Positions 23,890 through 53,210 of a stretch of DNA of 53,399 nucleotides are shown piece by piece. The translations under genes and the position numbers were made by a program. This DNA comes from an uncultured Clostridia bacterium (lineage in GTDB: Bacteria; Bacillota; Clostridia; UBA1381), in NCBI GenBank assembly GCA_947585795.1, contig CANPXG010000010.1:1-53399 (forward strand), written 5' to 3'. The notes under the pieces were generated by a model. The model ran no database searches and had not been told where the DNA came from. It worked only from the letters and a program-made list of their open reading frames with translations. The number at the start of each line of letters is the position of its first letter. The first letter of the stretch is position 1.

Positions 23890-23954
23890 TAGATTTTTTC
23901 CTTTTAGTTTATTATTTTGGATTTTTCGCATAAAACCGTGGTTTGTACGGCATT

Positions 23955-24017
23955 ATTTGAGATTTGACTGTACTTTATTCACTTAATTTTCTCAAATTCT
24001 ACCCTACTTTTACCCTA
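23955..24017. repeat. Possible integrase arm sites near left end
   Basis: An 8-bp inverted repeat (ATTTGAGA 23955-23962 and TCTCAAAT 23990-23997) is followed by the direct repeat TACCCTA at 24000-24006 and 24011-24017, spaced by one helical turn. The second copy overlaps the integrase stop codon. Such repeats beside the integrase gene are typical arm-type binding sites; this is inference. Confidence 0.35.
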
Positions 24018-25190
24018 ATTGTTGGCTTCACTAAACATAGCCATTACCGCATTAACTTTGTCGCTTTGAGATACATGGGCATAAACCTGTTCTATCATCT
24101 TATAGCTGTTGTGCCCCAATAATCGCTTTAATGTTTCCAGTGATACGTTACTACGCAACGCTCGGCTTGCAAACGTGTGTCTGAAATAATGCGGTGAAAA
24201 CATCTCTATCTCTATGTTATAACATCTCTTTAAATAATCTAAGACGTTTTTTATGGCGTTCCAATAGTACGCATGGTTATGAAGCTCGTTGAGCTTAAAA
24301 TCTATAAAGATAAAATCGTCATCGGATATTGTTTGATTTAGCGCAACCATAATCTCTTTATTCTCTTCATACTTCTTCCGTAATTCTTCGCTGACTCTCG
24401 GTATGATAGGTAAGGTGCGAACAGATGTCTTTGTCTTTGGTTTGCTAAATCCTTTCACAAGTCCTTGCTCTGATGAGTATTGAATATATGTTTTGTTTAT
24501 ACTCATACTCGAATAGTTGTCTGAAAGGTTGCACCACTGTAACCCTATAATCTCGCCACATCTCGCGCCTGTAGTTACCAACATCATGAAAAACAGTAAG
24601 TCTTGCGGTCTTTTCTCTTTCAAACCTCGGAAAAACCATTTTAGCTCATAGTCTGTCAGTTCTCGTCGTTCTTTGCTGTCTGTACCATTGACCTTGACAT
24701 TGTTTACCGGATTGTTACTTATGAGCTTATGCTCTACTGCCCTTTTTAACATGGTAGATAGCTCACCGCGTATGTTGGATATAGTATTGGTAGCATAGTG
24801 CAATGTTTGTAGCCGGTTTAGCAGTGTTTTCACATCCATATCTGTTATGTTCTGTACACGTTTACTGCCAAGCATTGGCTGTATATGTTTCGTATACATC
24901 TGTTGCTTAACGCTGATCGTTTGCGGTTTTAATACCCCTTCAACGTATAGGCTTAAGTACGTTTCTCGCCATTCGTCGAGCGTTATGTTGTTTTGCGATA
25001 CAAAATTGCCCGTGTCTTTCTTTACAGCAATCTGTGACAACATTTTTCGGACTTCCTCTTTAGTGTCCCCATACACACTTTTTTGCTTCTTTAGGTATGG
25101 ATCGTAATACCTCCCTTCCCACCTAATGTTACCTTTCTTCCCCGATACTCGTTTGCGTATCGTTCCTTCACCGTTGGCTCGTTTTGCCAT
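24015..25190 (-). CDS. int: Tyrosine integrase (Tn916 class)
   Basis: 391 aa. N-terminal AP2-like arm-binding domain (about 1-60, GTIRKR-GNIRWEGRYYDP), a SAM-like core-binding domain (about 68-165), and a catalytic domain with Arg210 (TTGARCGE), Lys near 253, His334/Arg337 (HYFRHTF), His360 (LLGHNS) and the nucleophile Tyr370 (YAHV). All catalytic residues are present, so it should be active. RBS AAGGAGG. It faces the presumed left attachment site, the usual arrangement for Tn916-type elements. Confidence 0.96.
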   Translation of the reverse strand: MAKRANGEGTIRKRVSGKKGNIRWEGRYYDPYLKKQKSVYGDTKEEVRKMLSQIAVKKDTGNFVSQNNITLDEWRETYLSLYVEGVLKPQTISVKQQMYTKHIQPMLGSKRVQNITDMDVKTLLNRLQTLHYATNTISNIRGELSTMLKRAVEHKLISNNPVNNVKVNGTDSKERRELTDYELKWFFRGLKEKRPQDLLFFMMLVTTGARCGEIIGLQWCNLSDNYSSMSINKTYIQYSSEQGLVKGFSKPKTKTSVRTLPIIPRVSEELRKKYEENKEIMVALNQTISDDDFIFIDFKLNELHNHAYYWNAIKNVLDYLKRCYNIEIEMFSPHYFRHTFASRALRSNVSLETLKRLLGHNSYKMIEQVYAHVSQSDKVNAVMAMFSEANN

Positions 25191-25253
25191 TTTAATTCCT
25201 CCTTCTGATTAAAAAGCAAAACCCGCCTATTATTGATTTTTTTGTTATCTTAT

Positions 25254-25282
25254 ATCTTATCATATACTACTCCTTCTGTCAA
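25254..25282 (-). promoter_or_regulatory. Integrase promoter
   Basis: Minus strand TTGACA (25282-25277), 17-nt spacer, TAAGAT (25259-25254), in the gap between the excisionase-like gene and int. Confidence 0.6.
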
Positions 25283-25314
25283 TAACGTCAGGTCTTGCCT
25301 TTTGTTATATAACC

Positions 25315-25512
25315 TTACTTACTTCCTCGTCGTTGTTCAAGGTATCTGTCCAGCGTGGGCTTATGCACCCGTACATTTCTGCCAATGTACTGTATACCGT
25401 CAAAATGCTTATCATGTATTAGCCTGTCCACGCTGCGTATGCTTATCTTTAAATATCCCGCTATTTCTTGGCGTGTCATATACTCGTCGCCGCTTATATC
25501 CTTGCCTGTCAT
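25315..25512 (-). CDS. xis: Excisionase-like HTH DNA-binding protein
   Basis: 65 aa from the ATG at 25512; the frame stays open to a TTG at 25539 (74 aa). The sequence YMTRQEIAGYLKISIRSVDR with LIHDKHFDGIQYIGRNVRV is the MerR-like winged HTH of the excisionase/HTH_17 family, which bends DNA at attachment sites or represses. Position between int and the accessory genes fits a recombination directionality factor. A good ribosome site (AAAGGAG) lies further upstream and serves a 15-codon ORF (25509-25556) that overlaps this ATG by 4 bp, suggesting coupled translation. Confidence 0.8.
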   Translation of the reverse strand: MTGKDISGDEYMTRQEIAGYLKISIRSVDRLIHDKHFDGIQYIGRNVRVHKPTLDRYLEQRRGSK

Positions 25513-25556
25513 AACCTTCGCCTTCTTAGCACTGCCCAAACTTCTTCTTTTAGCAT
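25509..25556 (-). CDS. 15-codon upstream ORF coupled to xis
   Basis: Reads MLKEEVWAVLRRRRL and stops in ATGA, overlapping the xis-like ATG at 25512. It has the AAAGGAG that the xis-like gene itself lacks. The arginine run near the end could slow ribosomes. It may be a leader cistron; or it may be chance and the true xis start a non-standard one. Confidence 0.35.
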   Translation of the reverse strand: MLKEEVWAVLRRRRL

Positions 25557-25571
25557 ATTTAACACACTCCT

Positions 25572-25853
25572 TTACCGTTTCTTTCGCCTTGATACGTTCT
25601 CTTGACGTAATCTCTCGATTATGAGCTTGCCGGGTATGTCCGTTAAGGCTTCAAACCAGCTCCCACCGAAAAAACGCTCACATTCCTTTAATACACCCAA
25701 ATTCTCTGTACGTTTCGCGCGACGGTAGTCCTTTACCGCCTGAATTATTATCGCGTACGCTAATCGCTCATAACTACCCATCGACTCTATCACAGATGTA
25801 TTGTCAAGGTTGAACGTGGGCGACGAGTATATACGCTTCTGTGTCGTAGTCAT
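25572..25853 (-). CDS. Conserved-type small element protein, unknown function
   Basis: 93 aa, no membrane segment or known motif. The core SYERLAYAIIIQAVKDYRRA and ERFFGGSWFEALTDIPGKLIIERLR resembles small proteins often found near integrases in Bacillota mobile elements. Ends with a basic tail (SRRKKR). Separated by 15 bp from the next ORF and 20 bp from the NA37-type gene, so it is in the same transcript. I cannot assign a function. Confidence 0.65.
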   Translation of the reverse strand: MTTTQKRIYSSPTFNLDNTSVIESMGSYERLAYAIIIQAVKDYRRAKRTENLGVLKECERFFGGSWFEALTDIPGKLIIERLRQENVSRRKKR

Positions 25854-25873
25854 GTCGCTCTCCTCCCCGTTCC

Positions 25874-26872
25874 CTACTTCACGTCCAGTGAGCTGATACC
25901 CTTTAGCACGATCCGTATTGCTCCGTCACTGTCGCGTTCCGTTTCGAAGCAGTCCGCATACAGACCGTGCGGGAATTTTATCTCAAACCCGTTATCCGTT
26001 ATTACCTTGACTTTCTCGTTCGCCTTTTTAACCGTATAGTCGTCAATGGGGAGCTTATCATCACCGTCCGTAACAAGTCCTGCGCCTATTGCCATGTCAA
26101 CAAACTCTTTCTTCTCGCCGTAGCTCTCAAAGATATTCGCGGATATTGTGTCAAGGCTATACGTCTTATCCTTACTCCCCGATTGCGCCGTTATTATGTT
26201 CTGCATGGTGTCTTTCAGCTTGACGTTACTCCTGAGCGCATCCGTAGATACCTTGCGTATCAGTTTCTTTATGCTCGTATCGGCTTGTTTGCTCGATACG
26301 CTCACATTCTCACATTCGAGAACCAGCTCCGACATGACATCTACTCGCTCGCCGTCTATCGGGTATGTCTTGCTCGCATACTCTATGCCGAAGTCGTCCT
26401 CGTTTATAACGGCAAACTCTTTCACGGTCTGATTATTCGGCAGTAACGCCGTATTGATTGATATGGTATTGCCGTTATCTATTACGTTATGCACATACCC
26501 TGTCTTGCGGTCGAGGTTCAGAATGACTATGTACTTACCGCCCTGTATCTCTACCTCGGCTATAACCACGTCCATACCGCCCGCTTTCTCGTACCCTGCC
26601 ATGCCGTCATATATCCGCTTCGCTATTTGACAGGACAACGCTATAAATCCGATTTCGCCCTTCTTGTAATCTGCCAGTGCGACCTTGCAGCCGCTGTTGC
26701 TCATGAACTCTGCGCGTTTCTTATTGGAACTGTTTATCACCTTTGTCACCTGTGCTGTGATGTATAGGTATATGTTCGTGTCGGTTATGTCCAGTTCCTT
26801 ATCAGACCATATCATTGTCCCCGCGTTCATCTCGCATATGTGCAATATCGCCCTTTCTACTCTTATCATCAT
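25874..26872 (-). CDS. NA37/YejK-type nucleoid-associated protein
   Basis: 332 aa, the normal length for the 37-kDa nucleoid-associated family. Family features: start VERAILHICEMNAGTMIWSDKELD, the middle GFIALSCQIAKRIYDG and FVDMAIGAGLV, and a C-terminal DNA-binding-type region. E. coli YejK binds DNA and topoisomerase IV; phage and plasmid members may protect or organise element DNA. RBS AAAGGAG. Lies 17 bp downstream of the zinc-ribbon gene. Confidence 0.75.
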   Translation of the reverse strand: MMIRVERAILHICEMNAGTMIWSDKELDITDTNIYLYITAQVTKVINSSNKKRAEFMSNSGCKVALADYKKGEIGFIALSCQIAKRIYDGMAGYEKAGGMDVVIAEVEIQGGKYIVILNLDRKTGYVHNVIDNGNTISINTALLPNNQTVKEFAVINEDDFGIEYASKTYPIDGERVDVMSELVLECENVSVSSKQADTSIKKLIRKVSTDALRSNVKLKDTMQNIITAQSGSKDKTYSLDTISANIFESYGEKKEFVDMAIGAGLVTDGDDKLPIDDYTVKKANEKVKVITDNGFEIKFPHGLYADCFETERDSDGAIRIVLKGISSLDVK

Positions 26873-26889
26873 CGTTCTCTCCTTTCTGT

Positions 26890-27117
26890 TTATATCATCT
26901 GTTCAACAAAAGCTTTCGGGAGTTTCACATCGCCCGATTTGCTCTTGCAATACTTACACTCGTGTACTTGCCCTCTCAGCATACGAACGTCTACGTCCTG
27001 CTCTCTGCCACAGCTCAAGCATACACACCTATACTTATGATGCCGATGCTTATCCGCACCTAAGTCTTTCTTTACCTCTAAACAACCAAACCGATTACCT
27101 ATCTCTACTTTACTCAT
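26890..27117 (-). CDS. Small zinc-ribbon protein
   Basis: 75 aa with two cysteine pairs, CVCLSCG and CKYC, separated by about 20 residues, forming a four-cysteine zinc ribbon. The KHRHHKYRC stretch is basic. Similar small ribbons in phages and mobile elements bind nucleic acid or act as adaptors. AAAGGGG precedes the ATG. Exact family not recognised. Confidence 0.65.
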   Translation of the reverse strand: MSKVEIGNRFGCLEVKKDLGADKHRHHKYRCVCLSCGREQDVDVRMLRGQVHECKYCKSKSGDVKLPKAFVEQMI

Positions 27118-27305
27118 CGTTTACTGTCCCCTTTCTGTCCGTGTTTTTACTGTCCCTATTCTGTACTGAACTGTCATCTACCGGCTTTGCTCTGTTCTGC
27201 TTATGCTTTGCTTCGCTCCGCACAGGTAGGGAAAATAAAATTTTTATTTTATTTATTTTATTTTTTATTTTTTTATTTCCCTATTTTAATTTTTTATTTC
27301 TTATT
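27118..27305. repeat. Direct repeats next to an extreme A/T tract
   Basis: TTTACTGTCCC occurs at 27120-27130 and 27146-27156, with a third CTGTCC at 27135. At 27232-27300 the plus strand is almost only T and A (runs of TTTTATTT). The tract sits between the winged-helix gene and the zinc-ribbon gene. It may be a promoter region or a DNA-unwinding/origin segment; nothing here decides. Confidence 0.4.
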
Positions 27306-28508
27306 TAATATATAATAACTCACTCTGTCCTTCGGCATGATACGCTCGTAATAGTCCTGTTGGTGTGGGTAGCAGATGATAACCACATTAACAGATTTTT
27401 GATAGCTTAGATTGCGATACAAATACTGGATACGGCACAAGTCCATGTCAGTGCCTATATACGCAGGTGTACCGTCATAGTCAAGCTCCGTGATAGGTGA
27501 GTATGTGCTCTGGAATGAACTGTCAAGGCTAAGTAGTTTGTCCCGTATCTTTATACGATAGTTATCCTCGTAGGTAAGTATCTCTTTAAGTATTGGTAGG
27601 TTTGCGGACTGGATGGGTACAGCGTACAGGTGCTTAAATATTCGCGCTAATCGTCTATCCATAAACTGTTCTTGGTCTTGCCCCATACGGTCTTTAAGAC
27701 TGTTAAATACTTTCCCAAACTCTCTGCCGTTCTTGCAAAATACTATACCGTTGCTTAGTTCGTTGCTTACGCCTATACCTTGCATACGCAGCATGGTACT
27801 GACTGATAACTGTGCTCTCTCTACTGCTTTTGCTTGGAATACTGTCCCGTTCGGATTGGACGCGTAGATGATATAAGGTATTGAACAGTTAAGCAATAGA
27901 CCGATGTGCGTTGAGAATTTGTACTGTGCTACCTCGTCTTGATTGAGTGTGAAGTTGTCGTGTATAGTTCTTGAGTGATAATATCGTGTTACTGTGTTGA
28001 GTGCATTTGCTATTTGGGTACTGTTTATGGGCTTATCTTGGGCTATACTGTACTGTCTTTTCGCCTTTTCTATCATGTCTATAAAGTACAGTGTGTCTGT
28101 TGCCTTTTTATTCTCTTGTTCTGCCGTTTCTATGCCGATTGACTTGAACATCAATGACGCTGATATGCTTTTAAGATATTTCTGTATTGTATCGTTATTG
28201 GTTATGTCCGTTATGCGAAATCTCGGCACAGGATTTGGTAAGAATGGAATGTAGCTATCGTTTGGATAGTTATCTATAAGCCACTGAACCCCTTGACGTG
28301 TGATTGATATGTATTGAATGGTGTATTTACGGTTGTTTGACCGTATAGGCAAGTCTTTACGTTTTATATATCCTTGACGTGTTAATATGGATATGTAATT
28401 ACCTACCTGTGAAGTGCCACCCAATACCGCTTTTATAGTTTGGGAAAGTGCTATACCGTTGTCCATAAGACACATTAAAATGTTGTATTTTATGTGTGAT
28501 TTAGACAT
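27294..28508 (-). CDS. Winged-helix protein of unknown function
   Basis: 404 aa from the ATG at 28508 (AAAGGAG 8 nt upstream); the frame is open to 28556. Residues about 1-75 (SHIKYNILMCLMDNGIALSQ, TRQGYIKRKDLP) form a winged helix, like those of plasmid replication-relaxation and transfer regulators. The rest (about 120-400) is mixed alpha/beta with a possible nucleotide-fold end (VNVVIICYPHQQDYYERI). A role in replication or relaxosome control of the element is a guess from position and domain. Confidence 0.6.
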   Translation of the reverse strand: MSKSHIKYNILMCLMDNGIALSQTIKAVLGGTSQVGNYISILTRQGYIKRKDLPIRSNNRKYTIQYISITRQGVQWLIDNYPNDSYIPFLPNPVPRFRITDITNNDTIQKYLKSISASLMFKSIGIETAEQENKKATDTLYFIDMIEKAKRQYSIAQDKPINSTQIANALNTVTRYYHSRTIHDNFTLNQDEVAQYKFSTHIGLLLNCSIPYIIYASNPNGTVFQAKAVERAQLSVSTMLRMQGIGVSNELSNGIVFCKNGREFGKVFNSLKDRMGQDQEQFMDRRLARIFKHLYAVPIQSANLPILKEILTYEDNYRIKIRDKLLSLDSSFQSTYSPITELDYDGTPAYIGTDMDLCRIQYLYRNLSYQKSVNVVIICYPHQQDYYERIMPKDRVSYYILNKK

Positions 28509-28638
28509 AATTTTTGCTCCTTTCTTTTTTGCTGTTGCGTGGTGTAAATCTATCAAGCTAATCTATCTTCAATAGATTTTCGGTCTTATGCGTTAAAAAT
28601 CCTTAGTAAAAACCTGTGTAAATCCGCTTCTTAACCTT

Positions 28639-28676
28639 GTGAAATTTATGTAGGTGAAAAATTACATAAATTTCAC
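28639..28676. promoter_or_regulatory. 14-bp perfect inverted repeat upstream of the winged-helix gene
   Basis: GTGAAATTTATGTA (28639-28652), a 10-nt centre, and its exact complement TACATAAATTTCAC (28663-28676). It lies about 130 bp upstream of the winged-helix gene and 20 bp past the stop of the next gene, with no U-tract. It may be an operator or an mRNA 3' stem. Confidence 0.5.
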
Positions 28677-28696
28677 GAGTTTTCAAAGGCTGAAAA

Positions 28697-29425
28697 TCAG
28701 AAATTTTGAAGGATTTCTAAGGTTTCGGAATCGGATTTTACTCCACTACTCTTAGGTGTGACTATAACATAGCTGCCGTCAGGTACATCGTCTGTCAGAA
28801 GCGTCGTCATGAACAGTGAACAGTGTACTCCGCTATCCCCATAGCCCGTATAGTCGGATATGACATCAATCAATCGTTTTATGTCATAATTGTCATTGTC
28901 GGGGACTCTAAGCTCACTCATCGCTGTGGGATATATATGGACGATGTGTATCAGCTTGTCACGGATAAGCGGCACATTGACGAGCGAAAGCTTATCGCGC
29001 AATAGGTCTTGGAACACCGAAGAGCGAATACGAGCTTTAACCGGCAGATGTGGTAGTTTCACAGCGAGCATATCATCTGTGGCAAATGCCGATATGAACG
29101 AACTGTCGCACTCAACCGTTACCGTATTCTTCAAATGTGCATCGTACACAGCGTAGAATATGTTGCTGTAATCGTTATATAACTGCTGATACAGCAGCAG
29201 AAACCGTATATAATCGCGAGTTATAAGCTTTTGTATATCTTTGGCGGTCTTATGCCGTTCCTTTGGCAGCATAAATCTGTATGTGCTCGCAAATACTTCA
29301 AGCGTAGGCAATGACTTGCTTATTTCGTTTTGTAGCTGTTCAGCTGTCTTGCCGGTTGCCTTATAGGTATTAACCATGTCGATTATATCCACATCAGCCA
29401 TATTCTGCACAAAATCCTTTGTCAT
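28697..29425 (-). CDS. Element protein of unknown function
   Basis: 242 aa, soluble, no motif I recognise. Helical N-half (DIIDMVNTYKATGKTAEQLQ, DYIRFLLLYQQLYNDYSN) and a beta-rich C-half with SDYTGYGDSGVHCSLFMTTLL. It begins 3 bp after the stop of the gene at 29429-29986, so the two are translated together and may act in one process. Confidence 0.6.
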   Translation of the reverse strand: MTKDFVQNMADVDIIDMVNTYKATGKTAEQLQNEISKSLPTLEVFASTYRFMLPKERHKTAKDIQKLITRDYIRFLLLYQQLYNDYSNIFYAVYDAHLKNTVTVECDSSFISAFATDDMLAVKLPHLPVKARIRSSVFQDLLRDKLSLVNVPLIRDKLIHIVHIYPTAMSELRVPDNDNYDIKRLIDVISDYTGYGDSGVHCSLFMTTLLTDDVPDGSYVIVTPKSSGVKSDSETLEILQNF

Positions 29426-29428
29426 GGC

Positions 29429-29986
29429 TTAGTCCTCCCACTCGTAGTATTTAGGCTTGCCATTCTCGTCGAGAATACAGTAATTATCGAACCCGAACGC
29501 CTTTACCTTGTTTGCCATTTCCTCATCGGGAAGCAGCGCGATATGTATAGTCATATCAACCTCACCCGGTGGGACGATCTGATTACGTTTAGGGATAATC
29601 GACATATTGATAGAATCGAGTGTTTGCCATGTATACACCGTCACATCATAGACGTTGTTGTCCTCGCCTATGATTAGTAGTTGGGACGGATAAGAAACGG
29701 GAAAGAAGTCCCGTACACGCGTTTCACCCATGTGCGCTAAAACCCATGTCGCTGTCGTCATTAGCTTCTGTCCGAAATCAGACTCGTTCACCCATTGTCG
29801 ACGTGTAATTATTCCGCGCTCCCTGTCCATATTGATTTGATTGGTTCGGCTAAGATGTCGTAAACACCAGTCAATGGTATCTACGTCGTGCGTCATACCG
29901 AACATCGTAAAAACCTGATTCTCTTCGACAACCCCAATACGGTTGACGAACTCAAGAATGTTGTTTACTAAAATCGTTGAAATCAT
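29429..29986 (-). CDS. DUF5697-like element protein
   Basis: 185 aa. The start ILVNNILEFVNRIGVVEENQVFTMF and DWCLRHLSRTNQINMDRERGIIT look like a winged-helix domain, followed by a beta-rich half ending GFDNYCILDENGKPKYYE. This resembles DUF5697 proteins of Bacillota conjugative elements; identification is from memory and tentative. It is the first gene after the ACGTT repeat cluster, so it likely heads the accessory operon running to int. Confidence 0.55.
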   Translation of the reverse strand: MISTILVNNILEFVNRIGVVEENQVFTMFGMTHDVDTIDWCLRHLSRTNQINMDRERGIITRRQWVNESDFGQKLMTTATWVLAHMGETRVRDFFPVSYPSQLLIIGEDNNVYDVTVYTWQTLDSINMSIIPKRNQIVPPGEVDMTIHIALLPDEEMANKVKAFGFDNYCILDENGKPKYYEWED

Positions 29987-30005
29987 AGCTATTTGTCCTT
30001 TCTTA

Positions 30006-30097
30006 ACGTATATAAAACGTTTAATAAACGCTTTGTATACGTTTTAATAAACGTTTTGATTACCGATAAACGTTTTTAACACGTTTAATGCACGTTC
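30006..30097. repeat. Phased ACGTT repeat cluster (iteron- or operator-like)
   Basis: ACGTA/ACGTT cores start at 30006, 30017, 30039, 30051, 30070, 30081 and 30092, mostly spaced by one or two helical turns. Two 22-bp units, ACGTTTAATAAACGCTTTGTAT split at 30017-30038 and the related copy at 30039-30060, are nearly the same. It fills the gap between the VirB4-like gene and the DUF5697-like gene. Confidence 0.65.
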
Positions 30098-30108
30098 ATA
30101 AATTATTT

Positions 30109-30144
30109 TTTCATCCCACCGCCATATGAAACGGTGGGATGAAA
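30109..30144. other. Stable hairpin beside the ACGTT cluster
   Basis: TTTCATCCCACCG (30109-30121), a 10-nt loop, and its complement CGGTGGGATGAAA (30132-30144). It lies 6 bp past the VirB4-like stop. On the minus strand it is followed by A residues, not U, so it is not a classical terminator; on the plus strand T residues precede it. mRNA 3' stem, origin or transfer-origin structure are all possible. Confidence 0.6.
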
Positions 30145-30149
30145 TGTTA

Positions 30150-32672
30150 TTAAGCCTGTCGTTCTTCGCGCTTGCGTGTTGCAATTTCGCGTAACTGGTT
30201 TGAATCGGTTGTAATCAATTCGTCTTCTGTCTTGGATGCTGTTACCTTTATCAGCACATGATTGTTGTTAGCATATAGCAGTCCTTCACCTTTTTGGAAC
30301 TGTACTACCTGTTGCCGTTCTGTGTCGGATAGGTTAAATTCGTTTTGTACAAACTCTGCTTCCTGCTGCTCAAGTTGCATGATAATTTTTATCTTTGCAC
30401 TGTTTACAACACCCTTACCGTATCGACCGTCGTCACGTGAGAAAAAGTCGTTCAGGTCTTGCGTTGAAGCCACCGCACTACCGCCATAGCTACGGATAAG
30501 TTTAAAGATTTCGAGTACAAACTCTGCCGTTTCCTCGGATCCTTTTGCACCGATCAACTCCCATACTTCGTCAATGAAAACAACCTTATGCTTTGTTCTG
30601 TCCTCTTTTATTTTATCCCATACATAGTCAAGAACAATAAACATACCTATAGGTATCATTTCCTTCGTCAGCTCCGATACGTCCAAGACAATATATTTAT
30701 TGTCCAAGTTGACGTTAGTCTGAGCATTGAAAGATGATGCTGAACCGGTAATATACCGTAGCAATATGCTGTATAGGCGGTTTGTTTTTTCACCCATTCG
30801 CTTTAACTCTTCGTGTAGGTCGCCCAGTATCGGCATTGGCTTATACCTCGTCGAATCGTCAGGGTCTATAAGAGATTTGTTGTCAGCCGTTATTCCAAAC
30901 TTTGCGTATGTGTTAACCAACGCTTCGTCCAACAACTGCTTTTCCTCATACGATATATCGGGTATTAACAGCGTAAAAAAGGTGTGAAGCTGTTGAATCT
31001 TACGCGACATGATAGACGCGCTGACAGCCTTTCTACCGTCCAGTATTTCCGACGTTTCAGTGTCCATTTTGCGTATTTCCATGATGTTAATATTTTGTTT
31101 TGAACCGGCACTGATATTGATATACTCACCGCCTATTTCTTCACAGGCTCGTATAAATTCATAGCCTTTATCGGGGGCGATGATAAATACCTGTTTCTGC
31201 TGTTGACGCATACGCATAGCCAAGCATTGCAGTGTATATGTCTTTCCCGCACCCGGTGTACCCATGATAGCCATGTTGGCGTTTTTATATTTTTTTGTAT
31301 CAAACGGATCGAGGAATACCAGCGAATTGTTATTGCGGTTGAGCCCAAGCATAATGCCGTTCTCATCGGTGATTTCGAATGATATGAACGGATATGCAGA
31401 CGCACAATCATGTGTTAAAACATTCCTGCGTGCGCGTCTATAGATAAAGTTGTCCATATAGCATAACGGCAGTGCCATTAAAAACGCTTCCTCTTGCCTA
31501 AACAGGCACGATTTCACACGTATGTCCTGTGTAATAAGGTACGCTTTTACCTCACGCATTTTCCATATAAGCTCTTCGTAGCTATCTGCCATAACCGTAA
31601 GTAAAATGGACATATAGCAAAAATCCTCGCCATTTGATATACCCTGTCGCAGATAATAGCCGGAAGATATGGCATCTCGTACATCGTCGTAGTCGGCAGA
31701 TGTATCATCCATAGTCCGTGCCTTTACCTTGTTAAACCTTAGCGCATATGCCAGTTTTTGTTGGGTAGCCGCTATGTTTTCCTTCTTTATATATAGGTCA
31801 ACATCTATGCCCTCGCCGAGGTTTATAAGATACGACAGCCAGCCCGCTACAGAGGTAGTGTTATACGACTTGGACGGAATGTACGCAAACGCGTAATATG
31901 TCCCGTCTACAACGATATATTTAGGCGATTGCCGCGTATCTATTGTCCTTGGCGACACGAAGTCGGTAAGCGGTATGTATGAGTCCTTTTCGGGGTTATA
32001 GTCCGAATCAGCTATGTAACGTGATATGGTCTCGTACATTTTTATATCAAAGGTCTTGTGCTCACTCTCGTTTTTGCACAGGATTTGGTAAAATATGTCA
32101 AGTATGTCCTTATCGTCTGTGAGTGGACGTACTTCGTTACCGCAGGGCAAAAGCATGTTCTGAATACGCATAGCATAAGTGTTTAGCGACGACTTGATTT
32201 CCGAGAACGTCGCGGACTTTTGCAAGCCGGTCGGTTCTTCATATTCAAAAATAATATAGAACCGACGTGATATGCCCTCTCTCGCGCCAACAGTGGAAAT
32301 AAGATTTATCTGTTCCTCTTGCAATTGCAAGCACTTGTCGTTTTCCTCTGTTTCCATATTGGTGTATATCTTATCGATATAGCTTGACACATCTGCTTTA
32401 CGGGATATAACCTTGAACTGTACCTTGATCGGCATTTGCTTCAACACTCCGGCAAATGACTGTACTATTGCGCTCTGTTCAGATGGCGACCTGAGCAGAA
32501 AATTTATAGGTGTTACCTCAAGGATTTTTATAAATCTCCTGTCGGTCGTTATAATAATCCCGTCAGATATATCACGAATAGGGAGAAATGCCTGTGTGCT
32601 TTGGATTTTCATCAAGCTTTTTTGTTTCTGCTTGATGCCGGCTTTCTTCGCCGTTTTTTCTTCTTTTGCCAT
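30150..32672 (-). CDS. virB4: VirB4/TraE-like conjugation ATPase
   Basis: 840 aa, cytosolic. An N-terminal VirB4 domain (about 30-430) is followed by the P-loop ATPase with Walker A GTPGAGKTYTL near residue 470 and Walker B KVVFIDEVWEL near 700. VirB4 proteins power type IV secretion during conjugation. It is downstream by 6 bp of the PrgI-like gene, the usual pairing in Gram-positive elements. This is the clearest transfer gene in the window. Confidence 0.93.
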   Translation of the reverse strand: MAKEEKTAKKAGIKQKQKSLMKIQSTQAFLPIRDISDGIIITTDRRFIKILEVTPINFLLRSPSEQSAIVQSFAGVLKQMPIKVQFKVISRKADVSSYIDKIYTNMETEENDKCLQLQEEQINLISTVGAREGISRRFYIIFEYEEPTGLQKSATFSEIKSSLNTYAMRIQNMLLPCGNEVRPLTDDKDILDIFYQILCKNESEHKTFDIKMYETISRYIADSDYNPEKDSYIPLTDFVSPRTIDTRQSPKYIVVDGTYYAFAYIPSKSYNTTSVAGWLSYLINLGEGIDVDLYIKKENIAATQQKLAYALRFNKVKARTMDDTSADYDDVRDAISSGYYLRQGISNGEDFCYMSILLTVMADSYEELIWKMREVKAYLITQDIRVKSCLFRQEEAFLMALPLCYMDNFIYRRARRNVLTHDCASAYPFISFEITDENGIMLGLNRNNNSLVFLDPFDTKKYKNANMAIMGTPGAGKTYTLQCLAMRMRQQQKQVFIIAPDKGYEFIRACEEIGGEYINISAGSKQNINIMEIRKMDTETSEILDGRKAVSASIMSRKIQQLHTFFTLLIPDISYEEKQLLDEALVNTYAKFGITADNKSLIDPDDSTRYKPMPILGDLHEELKRMGEKTNRLYSILLRYITGSASSFNAQTNVNLDNKYIVLDVSELTKEMIPIGMFIVLDYVWDKIKEDRTKHKVVFIDEVWELIGAKGSEETAEFVLEIFKLIRSYGGSAVASTQDLNDFFSRDDGRYGKGVVNSAKIKIIMQLEQQEAEFVQNEFNLSDTERQQVVQFQKGEGLLYANNNHVLIKVTASKTEDELITTDSNQLREIATRKREERQA

Positions 32673-32678
32673 TCTCTA

Positions 32679-33563: not shown

Positions 33564-33597
33564 CGTTCAAACCTCCTCGTATGAATTTTGATGTCAA

Positions 33598-34797: not shown

Positions 34798-34806
34798 TAT
34801 AATCAC

Positions 34807-35127
34807 TCCTTTGTTTAATACCTTTTATCCCTGTCGCCCGCCTTCTGAAGGGAGCCCTACCGCTTTGTGCTGATAGTAAGAAAGGAACAAGTGGAAATTA
34901 CTTGAAAAAAATACCTATCAGTTTTATTACGACTCCCTTTAAAAGACCGGCGACGTTGTCTTCTTTTCTTTTACTCCGTTGACGTAAGAGCGACGAGATA
35001 ATAACCACCTGCTTTCAAAAGATTTAATTTTCTTCTTTGCCCCTCATATATCACATATCTAAAAATCGCAAAAAAGGCACTTTGGATATAAATTTTTTTA
35101 AAAAATTTATACTTTTTCGCTGATATG
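34807..35127. other. Leader region before the S1-like gene, no gene found
   Basis: About 320 bp without a supported gene. It holds a 25-bp AT palindrome at 35087-35111 (TATAAATTTTTT with its complement), and a second copy of the string AAGGGAGTCG that also occurs in the terminator stem at 35155-35170. A 79-codon frame crosses it but overlaps a real gene end and has no good ribosome site. Confidence 0.4.
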
Positions 35128-35165
35128 TAAAAAAGCCGCCGCAATCTACTTGAAATTGCAGCGAC
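35128..35165 (-). terminator. Terminator after the 143-aa membrane protein gene
   Basis: Minus strand GTCGCTGCAAT / ATTGCGGCGGC (11 bp with G-U pairs), then TTTTTTAC. 8 bp past the stop codon at 35173. Confidence 0.7.
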
Positions 35166-35172
35166 TCCCTTA

Positions 35173-37888: not shown

Positions 37889-37947
37889 AACTTGATTTTT
37901 AAGTACCGTCCCGTTATTTTGTGCTATGCTAATGATGTAAAATAAAC

Positions 37948-46750: not shown

Positions 46751-46822
46751 ATTACTGTCTCCTTTCCTCAATGTTTACATACACATTTTATTTTACTCAA
46801 ATTTCTTGTATCGTACTTCTTT

Positions 46823-46848
46823 AAAAAACCTGCTCGTGGCAGGTATAT
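46823..46848 (-). terminator. Hairpin with U-tract between the two giant genes
   Basis: Minus strand ACCTGC-CACGA-GCAGGT then TTTTTTAAAG, about 75 bp before the 2856-aa gene. Read-through or a weak promoter downstream would be needed to express that gene. Confidence 0.65.
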
Positions 46849-46892
46849 CTATATAGCTTGTCTATCTAAACCCCATACATATCGCCCAAACT

Positions 46893-46924
46893 CCCGGCGC
46901 AAGTTTATTGGCTTGCGCCGGGGA
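46893..46924 (-). terminator. Strong hairpin after the 1849-aa gene
   Basis: Minus strand CCCGGCGCAAG-CCAATAAA-CTTGCGCCGGG, an 11-bp GC-rich stem, about 65 bp past the stop at 46987. No long U-run follows. Confidence 0.6.
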
Positions 46925-46986
46925 ATTGGCGTAAATGTGTATGGCATTCATGAAAGAACAAATACCCTTATGTATTAGCGTATATA

Positions 46987-49900
46987 TCAGTCTACCCATT
47001 CTTCGGCATTCTTGACCTCAACAATGTCATGGTCGTTAGCCGCTTCGATTACGTCGTAGAAGCCCCAATATACGCTGTCGTTCATATCCGTAAACGGATT
47101 CAGCTGCTTCATGTGGTTATTTACATAGTCCCTATCCGCAACTCTGCCGGTCATACGGTTCACGATCGCAACAACCTCTGCGCGCTTGATATTCGTGTCA
47201 GGTCTGAACGTCTTGTCGGAATAACCCGCTATCCAGTTCATGTTCGCCGCGACATTGATATATTCGTATGCCCAGTGTGTCTTGCTTACATCGGTAAATG
47301 TGTTCTTGGCAGTCGTGGTCTTGCTAAACAGCTCATAGAACTTAGTACACATAGCTACAAATTCAGCGCGTGTAATCTGTTCTTCAGGCTTAAATGTGCC
47401 ATCTTCATAGCCAGATATAACGTCATACTTTTCAAGGTATGCTATCGGATCATTGTACCACAGCTTATTATCTACATCCTTAAACGACGACTTGCGTGAA
47501 GGTATAGTTTCATCGTTCTTCTCGGCTATAATTCTTGCGAATATCGCCGCAGCTTCTGAACGTGTCATGTTACCCTCAGGCTTAAATTCACCGTCCGTAT
47601 AGCCGTAGATATACGCGCTGTGCGTATGTGTCGGCAAGATAACCTGTCCTTTACTGTTAGTTTTGCCGCTTACCGTGTTGCCTTTGCTGTCCTTTAAAAT
47701 AATGTTCATGCCCGACTTAGCATTACCCTTGCTGTCCGTAACCGTAACCGTGTAATAGTTACCGTCCTCAAGCGTGTTTGCCTTAGGCAGTGTCAAAGTA
47801 ATATCGTTATCCTTTACCGATTTTGTAGCCGATACCGTCTTACCGTCCTTATCGACGACTTTGACAGTTATTGCCGGTACGGAAACAGCGGAGCCACCGC
47901 CGCCACCACCACCTGACGAACCGCCACCACCGCCGCCACCGGAGCCACCGCCACCGGATGTGGGCTTCTTGGGAACGGTAATCTTACCGTCAGTATTGGT
48001 CGTAGCCGTTGCTGTGCCGTTCTGTGTATCGTTTACGGTAATAGCCAGTCCCGAAACGGGATTGTTGTCCTTATCCGTAACCGTGACCGTAGTCTGATTA
48101 TCGGCATCAAGCTTCTGTGTCGTCGGCAAAGTGATTGTCAGTTTGCCCTCACTCAGGACAATATGCGCCTTTTCAATCTTACCCTTTGTGTTCTCAACAA
48201 CAACGTTATAGTACGTTTCTTTACCCTCGGCATCTGTTTCTGTTACATTGCCGAATCCCTGCTTATCCGTATAGTCTTCATTACCCGCAGGAACCTTGGC
48301 AAGACCTTCACTGTCCGTGATGTCCTTTGCCGAATTGCCGGTTTTGTCGTGTACCGTTACAGGTACGTCCTTTACAGGATTGCCCTCGGAATCGGTCACT
48401 TCAACGACTACGCGGTTGCTCGGATCAAGTGTTGTGCCGTCAGGCAGCGTTACATCGACGTTGCCGTTCTCATCGACGGACACAATAGCGTCCTTTATAG
48501 GACCGTGCTCGTCCTGAACCTCTACCTTATAGTCGCGCTGTTTCTGTTCTGCGCTCGGATCGCTTGGATCGAGTTCGTCCTTGTTCGTAATATCACCCTT
48601 GCCCTCATCGTCCGTCTTATCCTCACGAATAGGCGGGGCTATAACTTGACCGTCCGCGTTTGTAATGTCGTTGCTTGTAGCTCCCGTGTTATCAGCTATG
48701 GTAACATCAACACCCTGCATGGGTACGTTATCTTTATCTGATACGGTCACGGTCGTTCTGTTGAAGTAGTCGATTACTTTACCGTCCGGCAGAACTACTG
48801 AAATCTTGCCTTCCGATATAGCTACCTGTGCGCCTTCAATCGCACCAAGCTCATCGTCCACAACAACGTTATACAGTACACCGTCCTCTGTAACCTGTGC
48901 GAAACCGTTTCTGTCGGTCACGTCACTGGATATAGGCGGCACTTTTGCCTTACCCTCATAGTTAGTCACATCGGAAGCGGACAGTCCTTCGTTCGTAACT
49001 ACCGTACAGAGTACGCCATTTACGGGCTTGCCCGTCTTCTTGTCAATAACGGTAACAATTACTCTGTTATTGGTAGTTATACCGATACCCTGCGGCAGTT
49101 TAACCGTAACATCGCCCGTTTCTCTGTCAACGCTTACGATAGCGTTAAGTATAGCACCCTCGTTATTCTCGACCTTAATGTTATAGAGAAAATCCTCATC
49201 GGGATTGGGTGTCACATACGGCGGGTCTGTAGGCTCGGGTGAGCTGCCGGGTTCAGGCGAACCTTCAGGCGTAGGTGAGCCCTCAGGCTCAGGAGTCGGT
49301 GAAGGTGCGGGTGTTTCTCCACTGTTTACGTCACCACCGTCTTCGCCCGTTTTGTCCTCATTCAACGGCGGGTATGTTACCTGTCCGTGGATATTGCTCG
49401 ATTGATCGTCACGCTTAACACCTGTCGTGTCCTGCATCTCAACAACGGAGCCTGAAACGGGATTGCCGTTCGTATCTGTAATAGTAACAGTGGTTCTGTT
49501 ACCGTAGTCGTTTACAATCTTTCCGTTGGGCAGTAACACCGTAAACCTCGAACCGTTACCGTCAACCGTTACATACGCTTCATATATAGGTGCGGTTTCG
49601 TCCGTTACCTTAACGATGTAGCCGTTCACGTTTACGATTCCGTTTTTGTCCGTATAACCTCTGTTGGCATCCGGAACGGTAATCTGCCCGTTTACGTTCG
49701 TTACGCCCTTTTCAACATAGTCGCTATCGCCGTATACAACGATATTAACACCCTGCTGCGGGAGTCCGTATTCGTTAGTTACTGTTACGGTAATGCGATT
49801 ATCGGCGTTCATAGTTGTGCCCTCGGGCAGCTTAACAACAATGTCATTATCCTGTCCGAAAGATATATCACAGTTGCCGATTATATCATTCTTCTTATCC

Positions 49901-52536
49901 GTTACAGTTACGACGTAAGTAGGCATTTTGCCCTCTTCGTCTGCCGTGTCACCGCCGATAGTACCGTTATTATTGCCTGTAGAAGACTGGTTATTTGGTA
50001 CTATGAGCTGACCGTTAATGTCTGTTACGCCCGTTGCAGCGTTATCGGAACTGTCGGAAATGAAAATGTGCAGTCCCTCTGCCGGAAGCTGTGTTTCAGT
50101 GTTAAACACCGTTATGGTCGTCTTATCATCAGCACTTAACAGCCTACCCATCGGCAAGCGGATTGTAATGTTATCACTCTCATCAATAGATATTGCACTG
50201 TTGAATATAGGCGTGCCTAAATGGTCGGTAATCAGGATAGAATAGTCGCCTACCTGCGATTTACCGTCTTCGTCGCTGTTATCGTCCGCAACAAGCTGCG
50301 GTATCTCTGCTGTCTGAAGCGTAATGCCGCAAACTTCACACTTGGTATGCTTCAAACCTTTACTCAGAATTGTCGCCGGAGTGTCGATTATCCAATCGGA
50401 CTCCTTATGACCGTTAGCGTCAACATAGTCATCGGTGTATGAAAAATCACAGTTCTTACAATTATGTGTTGTGTAGCCATGCTCTGTACAGTTCGGCTCG
50501 GTAACAACGTCCTCAAACTCATGGTCTTTCTTTTCTGTGTAGTCGGATATATACGTCGAATCGCCGTAAACACAGCTGTGTGTCGTAAATCCGCTTGATG
50601 TACACGTCGGCTCCGTTACTGTTTCCTCGTACTGATGTCCCTTTGCCGGCGCAAGGATAGCCCCGCATACGGTACACGTTTGAGGTTGTGTACAGGTCGC
50701 TTCATCGCCCGGTGTGTGTCCGGTAGCTGATATGGCTTCATACTTCTTCGTTCCGCAATATTCACAAGTGTACTCGGTCAAACCGTCTACCGCACACTGC
50801 GCTTCCGATACAACTTTGCCGGTTTCGTTCCACTTATGCTCAAGCTTGTCAGTGTTATCGTCATACTTAGTCAAAAGACAGTTCTGACACTGATATACTG
50901 TGTAGCCGCCCTCGAAGCAAGACGGTGATATGGTGCTTATCTCTTTCCAATCATGTCCAAGCGGTTCTTCAAAGCGTTTGAACTCACGCTTACCGCAAGC
51001 AGTACATTCGTCGTAGATAATACCCTGCTTTTCGCAAGTAGCTGCGGGATCGGCAACTTCTATCATACGTGCATGGTTAGACTTATCAACTGCTTGTGTT
51101 TCAACCAACGTATCGCCGCAATTATCGCACTTATATATAGTCCATCCCTCTTGAGTACAGGTCGCTTTGAACTCAGCATCTTTCTCGTAGTTGTGCTTGG
51201 TCTGCGATTTGAAGTTCCTGCGTTCTATCTCACCGCACTTTGAGCATTGCCATACTTCAAAGCCGTCCGTGGAACAGGTCGGATCAACTGTCCAGCGATA
51301 TTCAAAGTCATGAGCATCGCATTCGCCGCTGGAGCCGCCATTTTTACCTGCGTCGAGGAGAATGACCTGCGCGGTTCCTTTCTCAACCATGGCGATGCCG
51401 TCCGCTTCCCACTCGTCCCACTTGGTTTCAGGAGTGTTAATGGAAACGCCCTCATTGACGCCACCGGTGCCGGTGTAGGCATATCTGATTTCGTACTCGA
51501 CATCATAATCGCCCGGTTCAGTATAGCTGGGCGGCGTGTCCGACTCATACTTTGCACTGCGCGGATCAAGCTTGTATGCTACCACTTTTGTGACATTCGC
51601 GCCAAGACGTTCTGTGCCGACAGAAACGGAATGTTCATTGCCGTCAGCAAAACCTATAAAACCGCTGATGACGGTTTTGGCGGGGATTCGTGTCACTGTT
51701 GTAACGCCGCACCCTTTTTCAGATTTAGAGGTCGCGTTCGGATCACAATATTTTTCAACACGAAATTGCGAATTTCCAAGCTCGCCGTTGATAGATTTTA
51801 CGCGAAAATGATGCGCAACATCAATCCAGCCATTTGCACCCAAGCCTTTAGTTCCGTAGCAGAACTGACAAAACTTCACGCCTGCCATGACACGTTCTTG
51901 GTGACTCTCGTAGTATTTCGAATCGCCAATTGCGTAAGGAAGAACTTGGTTCTCGCCTTCAGGAAGCACGTCGAGGAAGTAGTCCGGGTTACATTCGTTT
52001 AAGCCAAAAAAATCACGATTGTAACCTGCTTCTTTGCTGCCGGAATTCGTATTCCATGAATTACATGACTGGCAATAAGTCTTGGTATAATGATGACCGG
52101 TATAGATACCGCCTTTGTTTGGCGAAACAATTGAAACGTCAATGGGCGTGCCAAGACTTTCGTCGTTTATGGCGAAGCCCCTCTTATCGCTCGTTCTCAC
52201 CCATGTAACATTTTTGTTCATGTTTGTCGCACCATCAATTGTATATTCGGGGACGCGGAACACGGTAAAAATGACCTGTTTACCTTCTCCGTCTCCACCA
52301 TTTTTAGGATCTTTACACTGATCGCTATGGCACACGCCCGACTCCTCGGTAACAATTGAGTTTCGTGTCAGTTCGTCAGTGTTGCCAAGGGTATCGAGCC
52401 AATTTTCGGCGGGATCATAGTACCCCATCGACGCGTCCTGACTCGATGCGAATGCTGTGAAATTAACCACCGGCAAAGCCGATGCTATCATTGTAGTTGC
52501 CATCAAAGATGCAACTACGTTTTTAAATTTAAACAT
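46987..52536 (-). CDS. Giant SLH surface protein with cysteine repeats and Cna-like repeats
   Basis: 1849 aa from ATG 52536 (AAGGAG upstream; a GTG at 52548 overlaps the ribosome site). Signal peptide about 1-32 (ASLMATTMIASALPVVNFTAFA). Residues about 32-400 form a domain of unknown type with CxxC pairs (YCQSCNSW, FCQFCYG). About 400-750: nine repeats of the plan GH, PTCTxxGxxxYxC, xxCG. About 755-1530: seven Cna/Big-like repeats, one followed by a Pro/Ser/Glu linker (SPTPEPEGSPTPEGSPEP). Then a Gly/Ser linker, an eighth unit and three SLH domains (about 1640-1835). No sortase motif. Wall-bound adhesin is the likely role. Confidence 0.9.
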   Translation of the reverse strand: MFKFKNVVASLMATTMIASALPVVNFTAFASSQDASMGYYDPAENWLDTLGNTDELTRNSIVTEESGVCHSDQCKDPKNGGDGEGKQVIFTVFRVPEYTIDGATNMNKNVTWVRTSDKRGFAINDESLGTPIDVSIVSPNKGGIYTGHHYTKTYCQSCNSWNTNSGSKEAGYNRDFFGLNECNPDYFLDVLPEGENQVLPYAIGDSKYYESHQERVMAGVKFCQFCYGTKGLGANGWIDVAHHFRVKSINGELGNSQFRVEKYCDPNATSKSEKGCGVTTVTRIPAKTVISGFIGFADGNEHSVSVGTERLGANVTKVVAYKLDPRSAKYESDTPPSYTEPGDYDVEYEIRYAYTGTGGVNEGVSINTPETKWDEWEADGIAMVEKGTAQVILLDAGKNGGSSGECDAHDFEYRWTVDPTCSTDGFEVWQCSKCGEIERRNFKSQTKHNYEKDAEFKATCTQEGWTIYKCDNCGDTLVETQAVDKSNHARMIEVADPAATCEKQGIIYDECTACGKREFKRFEEPLGHDWKEISTISPSCFEGGYTVYQCQNCLLTKYDDNTDKLEHKWNETGKVVSEAQCAVDGLTEYTCEYCGTKKYEAISATGHTPGDEATCTQPQTCTVCGAILAPAKGHQYEETVTEPTCTSSGFTTHSCVYGDSTYISDYTEKKDHEFEDVVTEPNCTEHGYTTHNCKNCDFSYTDDYVDANGHKESDWIIDTPATILSKGLKHTKCEVCGITLQTAEIPQLVADDNSDEDGKSQVGDYSILITDHLGTPIFNSAISIDESDNITIRLPMGRLLSADDKTTITVFNTETQLPAEGLHIFISDSSDNAATGVTDINGQLIVPNNQSSTGNNNGTIGGDTADEEGKMPTYVVTVTDKKNDIIGNCDISFGQDNDIVVKLPEGTTMNADNRITVTVTNEYGLPQQGVNIVVYGDSDYVEKGVTNVNGQITVPDANRGYTDKNGIVNVNGYIVKVTDETAPIYEAYVTVDGNGSRFTVLLPNGKIVNDYGNRTTVTITDTNGNPVSGSVVEMQDTTGVKRDDQSSNIHGQVTYPPLNEDKTGEDGGDVNSGETPAPSPTPEPEGSPTPEGSPEPGSSPEPTDPPYVTPNPDEDFLYNIKVENNEGAILNAIVSVDRETGDVTVKLPQGIGITTNNRVIVTVIDKKTGKPVNGVLCTVVTNEGLSASDVTNYEGKAKVPPISSDVTDRNGFAQVTEDGVLYNVVVDDELGAIEGAQVAISEGKISVVLPDGKVIDYFNRTTVTVSDKDNVPMQGVDVTIADNTGATSNDITNADGQVIAPPIREDKTDDEGKGDITNKDELDPSDPSAEQKQRDYKVEVQDEHGPIKDAIVSVDENGNVDVTLPDGTTLDPSNRVVVEVTDSEGNPVKDVPVTVHDKTGNSAKDITDSEGLAKVPAGNEDYTDKQGFGNVTETDAEGKETYYNVVVENTKGKIEKAHIVLSEGKLTITLPTTQKLDADNQTTVTVTDKDNNPVSGLAITVNDTQNGTATATTNTDGKITVPKKPTSGGGGSGGGGGGGSSGGGGGGGSAVSVPAITVKVVDKDGKTVSATKSVKDNDITLTLPKANTLEDGNYYTVTVTDSKGNAKSGMNIILKDSKGNTVSGKTNSKGQVILPTHTHSAYIYGYTDGEFKPEGNMTRSEAAAIFARIIAEKNDETIPSRKSSFKDVDNKLWYNDPIAYLEKYDVISGYEDGTFKPEEQITRAEFVAMCTKFYELFSKTTTAKNTFTDVSKTHWAYEYINVAANMNWIAGYSDKTFRPDTNIKRAEVVAIVNRMTGRVADRDYVNNHMKQLNPFTDMNDSVYWGFYDVIEAANDHDIVEVKNAEEWVD

Positions 52537-52571
52537 GATCTTTATCACTCCTTAGATATTTTTCTTGTATC

Positions 52572-52672
52572 TCCTGCCCTTTCAGCGGCGAATACGCCGC
52601 CGGGACAAATCCACTAACTAAAATTATAAATGTAAAGGAGTTTTGCAGCTACACGCTGCTGAAAGAGCAGGA
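52572..52672 (-). ncRNA. Candidate structured RNA (three-way junction) before the ribosome site
   Basis: Closing stem TCCTGCTCTTTCA / TGAAAGGGCAGGA (13 bp, one G-U), inside it GCAGC-GTGTA-GCTGC and GCGGCG-TATT-CGCCGC joined by a 40-nt AT-rich strand. It ends about 18 nt before AAGGAG of the surface protein gene, where riboswitches usually sit. I recognise no known riboswitch class. Confidence 0.45.
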
Positions 52673-52721
52673 AATTTTTATAATTGTAATTAGCAAATTG
52701 CTTGCCCAACGGAACGGACCA

Positions 52722-52807
52722 AGAAAAAAGGCAGCGATTGATAAAATTTTTAATTATTTTTTTTATCTTCCCGATCCGTTCTGCAAGGCAAGCAAATCGC
52801 TGCCTTT
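52722..52807 (-). terminator. Third hairpin of the surface-protein leader
   Basis: Minus strand AAGGCAGCGATT / AATCGCTGCCTT (12 bp) then TTTTTTCTT. A second inverted repeat overlaps it: GATCCGTTCTGC-AAGGCAAGC (52773-52794 region) pairs with GCTTGCCC-ACGGAACGGACC (52700-52720 region), so the two pairings exclude each other. Confidence 0.7.
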
Positions 52808-53051
52808 AAGTGCCGCTTTTTGTACCGCCAAAAGCGTAAAGACTCGTGGAAATCATACACATCTCTCCTTCCATATATTTGGAAGAAAGTTCAAACAAAA
52901 AAACAAAAAAGGTGCGAACAAACTTTACTTCGTTCGCACCATGATTTAACACGAGAACCAAAAAAAGAAGTTCTGCTAAATCATCTTGCTTGATTGCTAC
53001 AGGGTTTTTCGCAAAATGGGCACAAAATCCCCTGTGTAGAACTTCCTTCAT
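52806..53051 (-). CDS. 81-codon ORF inside the surface-protein leader
   Basis: Starts MKEVLHRGFCAHFAKNPVAI and runs through two terminator hairpins, whose T-tracts code Leu/Phe runs (LLFLVLVL, FFVFLFEL). A GAGGGG that could be its ribosome site lies in the AGAGGG/CCCTCT stem just upstream. No domain recognised. It may be a regulatory leader ORF or simply a frame left open by chance; the start motif HRGFCAHFAKNP looks familiar from other small ORFs but I cannot name it. Confidence 0.35.
   Translation of the reverse strand: MKEVLHRGFCAHFAKNPVAIKQDDLAELLFLVLVLNHGANEVKFVRTFFVFLFELSSKYMEGEMCMISTSLYAFGGTKSGT
52897..52940 (-). terminator. Second hairpin of the surface-protein leader
   Basis: Minus strand GGTGCGAAC / GTTCGCACC (9 bp) followed by TTTTTTGTTTTTTTG, a strong intrinsic terminator in form. 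Confidence 0.8.
52960..53046 (-). terminator. First hairpin of the surface-protein leader
   Basis: Minus strand GAAGTTCT / AGAACTTC closes an 80-nt structure with an inner CAGGG/CCCTG stem, then TTTTTTTGG. The inner GGGGATTTTGTGCCCATTTT resembles GGGATTTTTGTACCATTTTT in the sigma-gene leader. Confidence 0.6.
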
Positions 53052-53122
53052 TGTAGAGGGTACACTATTCCCCTCTTTAATACTTCATACACTTAGTCAA
53101 GAAAAAATCTTAACTTACCTTA

Positions 53123-53151
53123 ATTATACAACACTAAAAAACTCATGTCAA
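53123..53151 (-). promoter_or_regulatory. Consensus promoter of the 1849-aa surface protein gene
   Basis: Minus strand TTGACA (53151-53146), 17-nt spacer, TATAAT (53128-53123). Shares AAACGCTTGACATG or a near copy with the promoter at 38.1 kb. Confidence 0.85.
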
Positions 53152-53210
53152 GCGTTTTTTGAGAAATTTTTGTGAAAAAATTTTTGAATGAGAATCCTTT
53201 CCCCACCCTG

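Follow-up and report, generated by a model that had tools for sequence, protein, structure and literature searches.

The 53,399-bp stretch of DNA analysed here (the window) comes from an uncultured Clostridia bacterium and is the whole of contig C10 of its source genome, G000 (2.54 Mb, 130 contigs). It contains the left arm of a large integrative and conjugative element (ICE) of at least 102.9 kb, which encodes two giant surface proteins with SLH domains. The smaller giant, of 1,853 residues, belongs to an SLH-anchored protein family that is apparently new to the literature, is conserved and is often encoded in conjugation operons. On balance we favour the reading that this protein is a mating-pair adhesin of the ICE, and that its larger neighbour, which carries leucine-rich repeats (LRR), serves as another adhesin, the head of which can be exchanged.

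Integration sites and ends of the element

The element occupies the window from 23872 to its end at 53399 and continues on contig C5 of the same genome (2874-76276), which holds the 73.4-kb right arm. The two parts amount to 102,931 bp, a minimum length to which the gap between the two contigs has to be added. In G015, the genome of a congeneric species, the window segment 23917-53399 is present with the same gene order at a different chromosomal site. The DNA identity of the two copies is 90.7% in 23917-25487, 91.4% in 25581-43686 and 94.4% in 45828-53399; these three blocks cover 27.2 of the 29.5 kb of the window part, and 43687-45827 is unaligned at the DNA level. The right arms are 92-97% identical in five main blocks.

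On its left the element of G000 adjoins a radical SAM locus, where the chromosomal flank encodes a radical SAM/SPASM protein (22197-23567, minus strand, identified by Pfam) and a small Cys-rich open reading frame (ORF) at about 23680-23830, which we take to resemble a SCIFF peptide. In G015 the left neighbour is an hrcA-like gene block, the genes of which are presumably hrcA, grpE and dnaK. The empty sites are reciprocal, the radical SAM site being uninterrupted in G015 and the hrcA site in G000, and searches with the sequence on the far side of each empty site led to both right ends. In G000, positions 1-2873 of C5 are chromosomal and the element starts at C5:2874, while in G015 the right end lies on contig C4 at about 14701. 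The target repeat at the junctions is TATCACA in G000, with one copy at 23865-23871 on the attL side and the second at C5:2873-2867, and TTAATAAATT in G015. Each of these occurs once in the respective empty site, in the second one with one base different. The sequence common to both element copies begins at approx. 23917-23927, and the 55 bp (G000) or 32 bp (G015) lying between the junction repeat and this common sequence differ between the copies.

Besides an integrase and ends with direct repeats, a second integration site and an empty site, the element encodes both a VirB4 ATPase and a VirD4 coupling protein (C5:73338-75350, PF02534, 4e-53). We regard it as a large ICE, which has moved between related gut bacteria and probably spreads by cell-to-cell transfer. 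The original prediction, made from the letters of the window, had seen a transfer-type element that is integrated here and encodes giant SLH proteins, which is borne out by these results. It had also named two observations that would speak against it, namely the same synteny fixed at this locus in all relatives without an empty site and the lack of transfer genes to the right. Neither is the case: the element lies at another site in G015, each genome has the site of the other empty, and the rightward extension that had been proposed led to the right end at C5:2874 and to VirD4, so that of the features to be looked for only the relaxase is missing.

A fixed genomic island that has lost its mobility, and in which the surface genes are present by chance, is very improbable. 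That no relaxase was recognised would agree with such an island, as would the lack of a match for the VirD4 part in the G015 bin, a search made without a positive control, but it is contradicted by the two sites in two species, the two empty sites and the location of both ends.

The 1,853-residue giant and its family

The smaller giant (46987-52548, minus strand; SLH 7e-35) consists of a Cys-rich head, CxxC repeats, Ig-like domains, a Gly-rich linker, three SLH domains and a conserved tail, and is preceded by a signal peptide recognised by eye only. Its copies in G000 and G015 are 98.4% identical over the whole length. The SLH domains of both giants are above the Pfam cut-off, and the two genes together make up 14.15 kb.

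Matches to the family were found in 33 of 95 genomes of the order; the relatives have approx. 1,740-2,100 residues and the other matches are fragments or partial. A scan of a named collection, where the relatives listed include Monoglobus, Ornithomonoglobus and Ructibacterium, gave 78 loci, and viral contigs gave 4. Among 28 giant-bearing contigs inspected (a chosen part of the places from the 95-genome search, together with the window and earlier stretches), VirD4 was present in the fetched stretch of 12; of the remaining contigs, many stop at the giant or close to it. For the gene neighbourhoods 64 distinct giant ORFs were used (E at most 1e-60, with 4 exact duplicates dropped), which include two ORFs of locus L225, the G015 copy and the G015 LRR giant. 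The count on the 28 contigs and that on the 64 ORFs overlap in part and are not independent of each other, since several of the loci come from genomes that also supplied the 28 contigs.

A conjugation marker (VirD4, VirB4, relaxase, PcfB or MobC) lies within about 12 kb of 18 of the 25 giants that have at least 4 kb on both sides, one of the 18 having MobC alone, at 9.5 kb. Relaxase, PcfB or MobC was found within 5 kb in 16 of 50 giants with at least 4 kb upstream. The full order MobC-relaxase-PcfB-giant-VirD4-VirB4 is present in L190, L208, L213, L226 and L228, and VirD4 is upstream of the giant in L194, L201 and L250. In Ructibacterium gallinarum DSM 107454 (L192 and L198) PcfB and VirD4 flank the giant. 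In Monoglobus pectinilyticus (NZ_OY725736.1) the order is MobC, relaxase, PcfB, a hypothetical protein, the giant (as two ORFs), a toxin and antitoxin pair and VirD4. Seven giants are without a marker: L183 (the G015 copy), L187, L235, L238, L242, L249 and L264. L187 encodes ArdA and Tad-pilus-type proteins and L249 an N6-methylase/SNF2 protein; L263, the giant of which is identical to that of L264, encodes a Toprim/DUF3991 protein and an actin-like protein, and for one protein of L238 Pfam gave no match.

Since the family often lies within conjugation operons, flanked by PcfB and VirD4 where the operon is most complete, the 1,853-residue giant appears to be a part of the transfer machinery rather than cargo. 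The alternative is that both giants are accessory cargo, which, without any role in conjugation, would alter the binding of the host cell to mucus, plant fibre or host tissue. LPXTG proteins on conjugative transposons (CTn) of Clostridium difficile are described as accessory or colonisation factors (PMC3158075, PMC6814731). SLH proteins are also abundant in G000, with 81 matches on 27 contigs, of which 8 (on C10 and C11) are on VirB4-bearing contigs, although the shortness of most contigs makes this background a weak control. Cargo would, however, rarely be placed as the 1,853-residue family is, with the end of PcfB no more than 110 bp away from the giant in 15 of the 64 ORFs and VirD4 within 4 kb in 15 of the 31 giants that have at least 4 kb downstream, in several genera. 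This argument concerns the 1,853-residue family and not the LRR giant, and we consider the cargo explanation unlikely for the pair. The original prediction had regarded the giants as a distinct class of cargo; this is only partly supported, as it suits the 1,853-residue family, often found in conjugation operons, less well than a role in transfer does. Surface proteins on conjugative elements are known in kind. The LRR giant may still be cargo.

No paper on SLH proteins of conjugation operons was found in the literature by title or start of abstract, in a search that covers few subscription papers.

Several further arrangements were observed among the loci. A second element of G000, on C11 (L157, L158, L265), encodes a relaxase, a 2,093-residue giant, VirD4 and VirB4. 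Genes of Tad/Flp-pilus type (RcpC/CpaB, a T2SSE-type ATPase) lie near the giant or the type IV secretion system (T4SS) in L187, where they were tested by Pfam, and in L270 and G025:C40 (L044), where they were recognised by eye. In G014:C16 (L049) and G013:C11 (L051) VirB4 is in two ORFs, and ORFs of giant surface proteins lie between its N- and C-terminal parts.

The 2,863-residue LRR giant

The larger giant (38180-46771, minus strand; PF13306 2e-130, SLH 1e-25) consists of BspA-type LRR stretches, Ig-like domains, a Gly-rich linker and SLH domains. The two giants share one C-terminal chassis, since their last approx. 500 residues are 42% identical. Compared in steps of 100 residues, the LRR giants of G000 and G015 are 41-71% identical within residues 101-1100 and 89-100% identical in the rest of the protein. 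In steps of 150 bases the DNA identity drops from 85-96% to 48-71%; the edges of this drop lie near residues 150-200 and 1050-1100, and the divergent head corresponds to 43532-46264 of the window. The simplest reading of these sequences is that the head was replaced or changes very fast.

Among the proteins compared, a near-full-length twin of the LRR giant is present only in the G015 copy of the element, and a second relative in G000, 68% identical, lies on the 6.3-kb contig C98 (L275). This distribution and the BspA-type repeats speak for the cargo explanation. The divergence of the head between the two element copies would fit recognition or escape, and so might agree with a shield formed by the giants, a surface coat made after entry that would block a second element or phages (surface exclusion). 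Large surface proteins of conjugative elements can have such an excluding effect. A shield is nevertheless quite improbable: no exclusion-type family was found among the proteins scanned with Pfam (20 of the window and 20 of the 83 ORFs of at least 80 residues on C5), and the conserved head of the 1,853-residue giant and its position beside transfer genes suit contact with a recipient better than exclusion.

Proposed role of the giants

The 1,853-residue giant is large, carries a signal peptide for secretion as judged by eye and a wall anchor, and is encoded with transfer genes in its relatives, which are the gene-level features of a conjugation adhesin. Gene order and precedent lead us to infer that a mating adhesin explains it better than cargo does. 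The giant would be displayed on the donor cell, with its SLH domains bound non-covalently to the wall, and the conserved Cys-rich head on its Ig-like stalk would grip recipient cells, in the role of PrgB or of TIE of pLS20. The LRR-SLH neighbour, built on the same C-terminal chassis, would be a second adhesin, the exchangeable head of which would set what the cell binds.

A wider proposal is put forward tentatively, as one we would not yet call likely. The giants may represent a widespread new class of conjugation adhesins in gut Clostridia, consisting of SLH proteins with a conserved Cys-rich head in the operon slot of sortase pilins; the companion LRR head would be swapped by recombination on a constant chassis and so set the partner cells, and eleven promoter-terminator leaders would drive much of the right arm.

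To our knowledge, the hold on the mating partner in Gram-positive bacteria is known for a few LPXTG or thioester adhesins only. If the adhesin reading is true, the conjugation operons of gut Clostridia would offer, in this SLH-anchored family, an additional route of anchoring, and the family would make it possible to test between which gut bacteria DNA is exchanged. The family is present in the records of cultured hosts, Ructibacterium gallinarum DSM 107454 and Monoglobus pectinilyticus, and an LRR head, if exchangeable, would allow a direct test of whether the host range of conjugation is set at the cell surface.

Other genes of the two arms

The integrase, VirB4, the PrgI-like protein and the two SLH giants were all confirmed where the original prediction had placed them. 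The genes described next are on the minus strand. The tyrosine integrase (24015-25190; PF00589, 2e-19) is 88% identical to the G015 copy. It adjoins a small protein (25572-25853) that may be the excisionase-like protein of the prediction; it is xis-like by position only, and Pfam gave no match for it. Then follow an NA37 nucleoid-associated protein (25874-26872; PF04245, 2.6e-19), a 420-residue protein (27294-28556) with a weak winged-helix-like N-terminus that belongs to no known family, a DUF6100 protein (28697-29425) and a DUF5697 protein (29429-29986), both identified by Pfam, and the VirB4 ATPase (30150-32672; PF19044, 2.7e-20), which is 95% identical to that of G015. The PrgI-like protein (32679-33563), presumably of VirB3 type, has a PF12666 match (3e-5) just under the cut-off, with 24.9 bits against 27. 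Further genes encode an S1 RNA-binding domain protein (33598-34806) with relatives in related T4SS loci, a membrane protein (35601-37070) that is SAF/CpaB-like by eye only and has no Pfam match, and a sigma-70-like factor (37240-37803; PF04542/GerE), for which Sigma70_r2 is just under the Pfam cut-off and sigma70-ECF (2e-8) is under it as well. A small gene on the plus strand, of which only the start (53273-53399) is present because the contig ends there, encodes what we take to be a PBECR-type nuclease domain. Similar sequence is repeated in positions 1-1337 of contig C37 of G000, and these repeats may have broken the assembly of the window there.

The right arm encodes further proteins recognised by Pfam, namely a CHAP lytic protein, ParB, an actin-like partition protein, a topoisomerase, RecD2 and a YqaJ exonuclease. 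A TrbC/VirB2-like pilin is just under the Pfam cut-off (27.8 against 27.9 bits), and a second pilin-like protein matches T4SS_pilin with 21.3 bits against 26.6. An 833-residue protein, which is presumably VirB6-like, is 29.7% identical over 343 residues to the protein at the same place in G023. One protein has a metallo-beta-lactamase fold, and the fold alone does not imply resistance. As had been predicted, no resistance gene was recognised among the scanned proteins of window and C5, no resistance-gene library having been run.

The prediction had also stated that neither a relaxase nor a coupling protein is visible. The coupling protein is VirD4, on the part of the right arm that lies outside the window; for the relaxase the statement stands, as no relaxase family was recognised among the scanned proteins or in relaxed scans of candidates. 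A search of the whole G000 genome with PF03432 gave matches only on C11 and C44, both in other elements. The order MobC-relaxase-PcfB, present in giant-carrying relatives, was not seen in the window or in the scanned part of C5, the gap between the contigs being unread, and we do not class the element as Tn1549-type. By its position only, the 420-residue protein is a relaxase candidate: relatives found by BLAST adjoin VirB4, DUF5697 and DUF6100 in G027 and G025, and that of G023 is recognised by position and alignment only.

A repeated operon leader is found upstream of genes on one strand of C5, in 11 full copies (at 8661, 12454, 16697, 19761, 25000, 30812, 38267, 39895, 43328, 48186 and 61428) and partial copies at 3206 and 65488; G015 has three copies on C4 and one on C1. 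It consists, in this order, of a TTGACA-17-TATAAT promoter, an ATGAAG box, a 14-bp terminator-like hairpin with a T-run, in most copies a TTTACCAAGTT box, a second hairpin-like divergent stretch recognised by eye, and AAGGAGGA. In the first hairpin none of the 14 pairs covaries. The copies on C5 suggest a shared control by attenuation.

Comparison with known systems

The VirB4 proteins of Vescimonas fastidiosa pMM35_02 and of the 247-kb plasmid OY725878 of Subdoligranulum variabile are 46-47% identical to that of the element (46.8% for Vescimonas), and relatives of VirD4 and of the S1 protein are present in both. Vescimonas also shares the order DUF5697-DUF6100-hypothetical-VirD4-S1, RecD-like and exonuclease genes and a related ParM-like protein. 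The hypothetical protein at the place of the 420-residue protein had no BLAST match to it, and no relaxase is annotated among the 129 listed features of this record, a table which can be incomplete. Instead of SLH giants, Subdoligranulum has a 1,423-residue protein with an LPXTG-like end (by eye), and in Vescimonas the S1 protein is followed by a hypothetical protein, SpaA- and SpaH-type pilins and two class C sortases. In G023 the genes before the giant are VirD4, that of the S1-domain protein and a small ORF. The two loci, G023 and Vescimonas, can be read as showing a single functional slot, in which different surface structures are placed.

An adhesin encoded with conjugation genes is known in kind, since TIE of the Bacillus subtilis plasmid pLS20 and PrgB are tested or reviewed conjugation adhesins (PMC8092201, PMC6540685). 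TIE resembles the 1,853-residue giant in being a surface protein of a conjugation operon with an Ig-like stalk and an N-terminal head and in not being anchored by sortase, but it has 778 residues and a class II thioester head (PMC8092201). The giant family, in contrast, has a Cys-rich head with no thioester match, CxxC repeats, up to approx. 2,100 residues and an SLH anchor. PrgB, the aggregation substance of pCF10, is likewise a large surface protein of the conjugation module of a Gram-positive element (PMC6540685, PMC12857230); its LPXTG anchor and polymer adhesin domain were not found in the giant. No Pfam or PDB sequence match to a polymer adhesin or thioester domain was obtained for the giant, and its fold comparison with the PrgB and TIE families is weak and limited to residues 255-367. 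A T4SS review of 2025 describes LPXTG adhesins, and its sole mention of an S-layer concerns archaea (PMC12857230). The Cna-B LPXTG proteins of C. difficile CTn1 and CTn7 (CD0386, CD3392) have Ig-like B repeats and lie on an integrated conjugative element, but are anchored by sortase and described as accessory (PMC3158075), whereas the giants are SLH-anchored and larger, with relatives often beside relaxase, PcfB or VirD4. BspA-type surface proteins share the LRR_5 repeats (PF13306) with the LRR giant, which, unlike them, lies on a mobile element and has its SLH chassis in common with the conjugation-linked giant. If the 1,853-residue giant is a mating-pair adhesin, what is new in it, compared with PrgB and TIE, is the anchor and the head.

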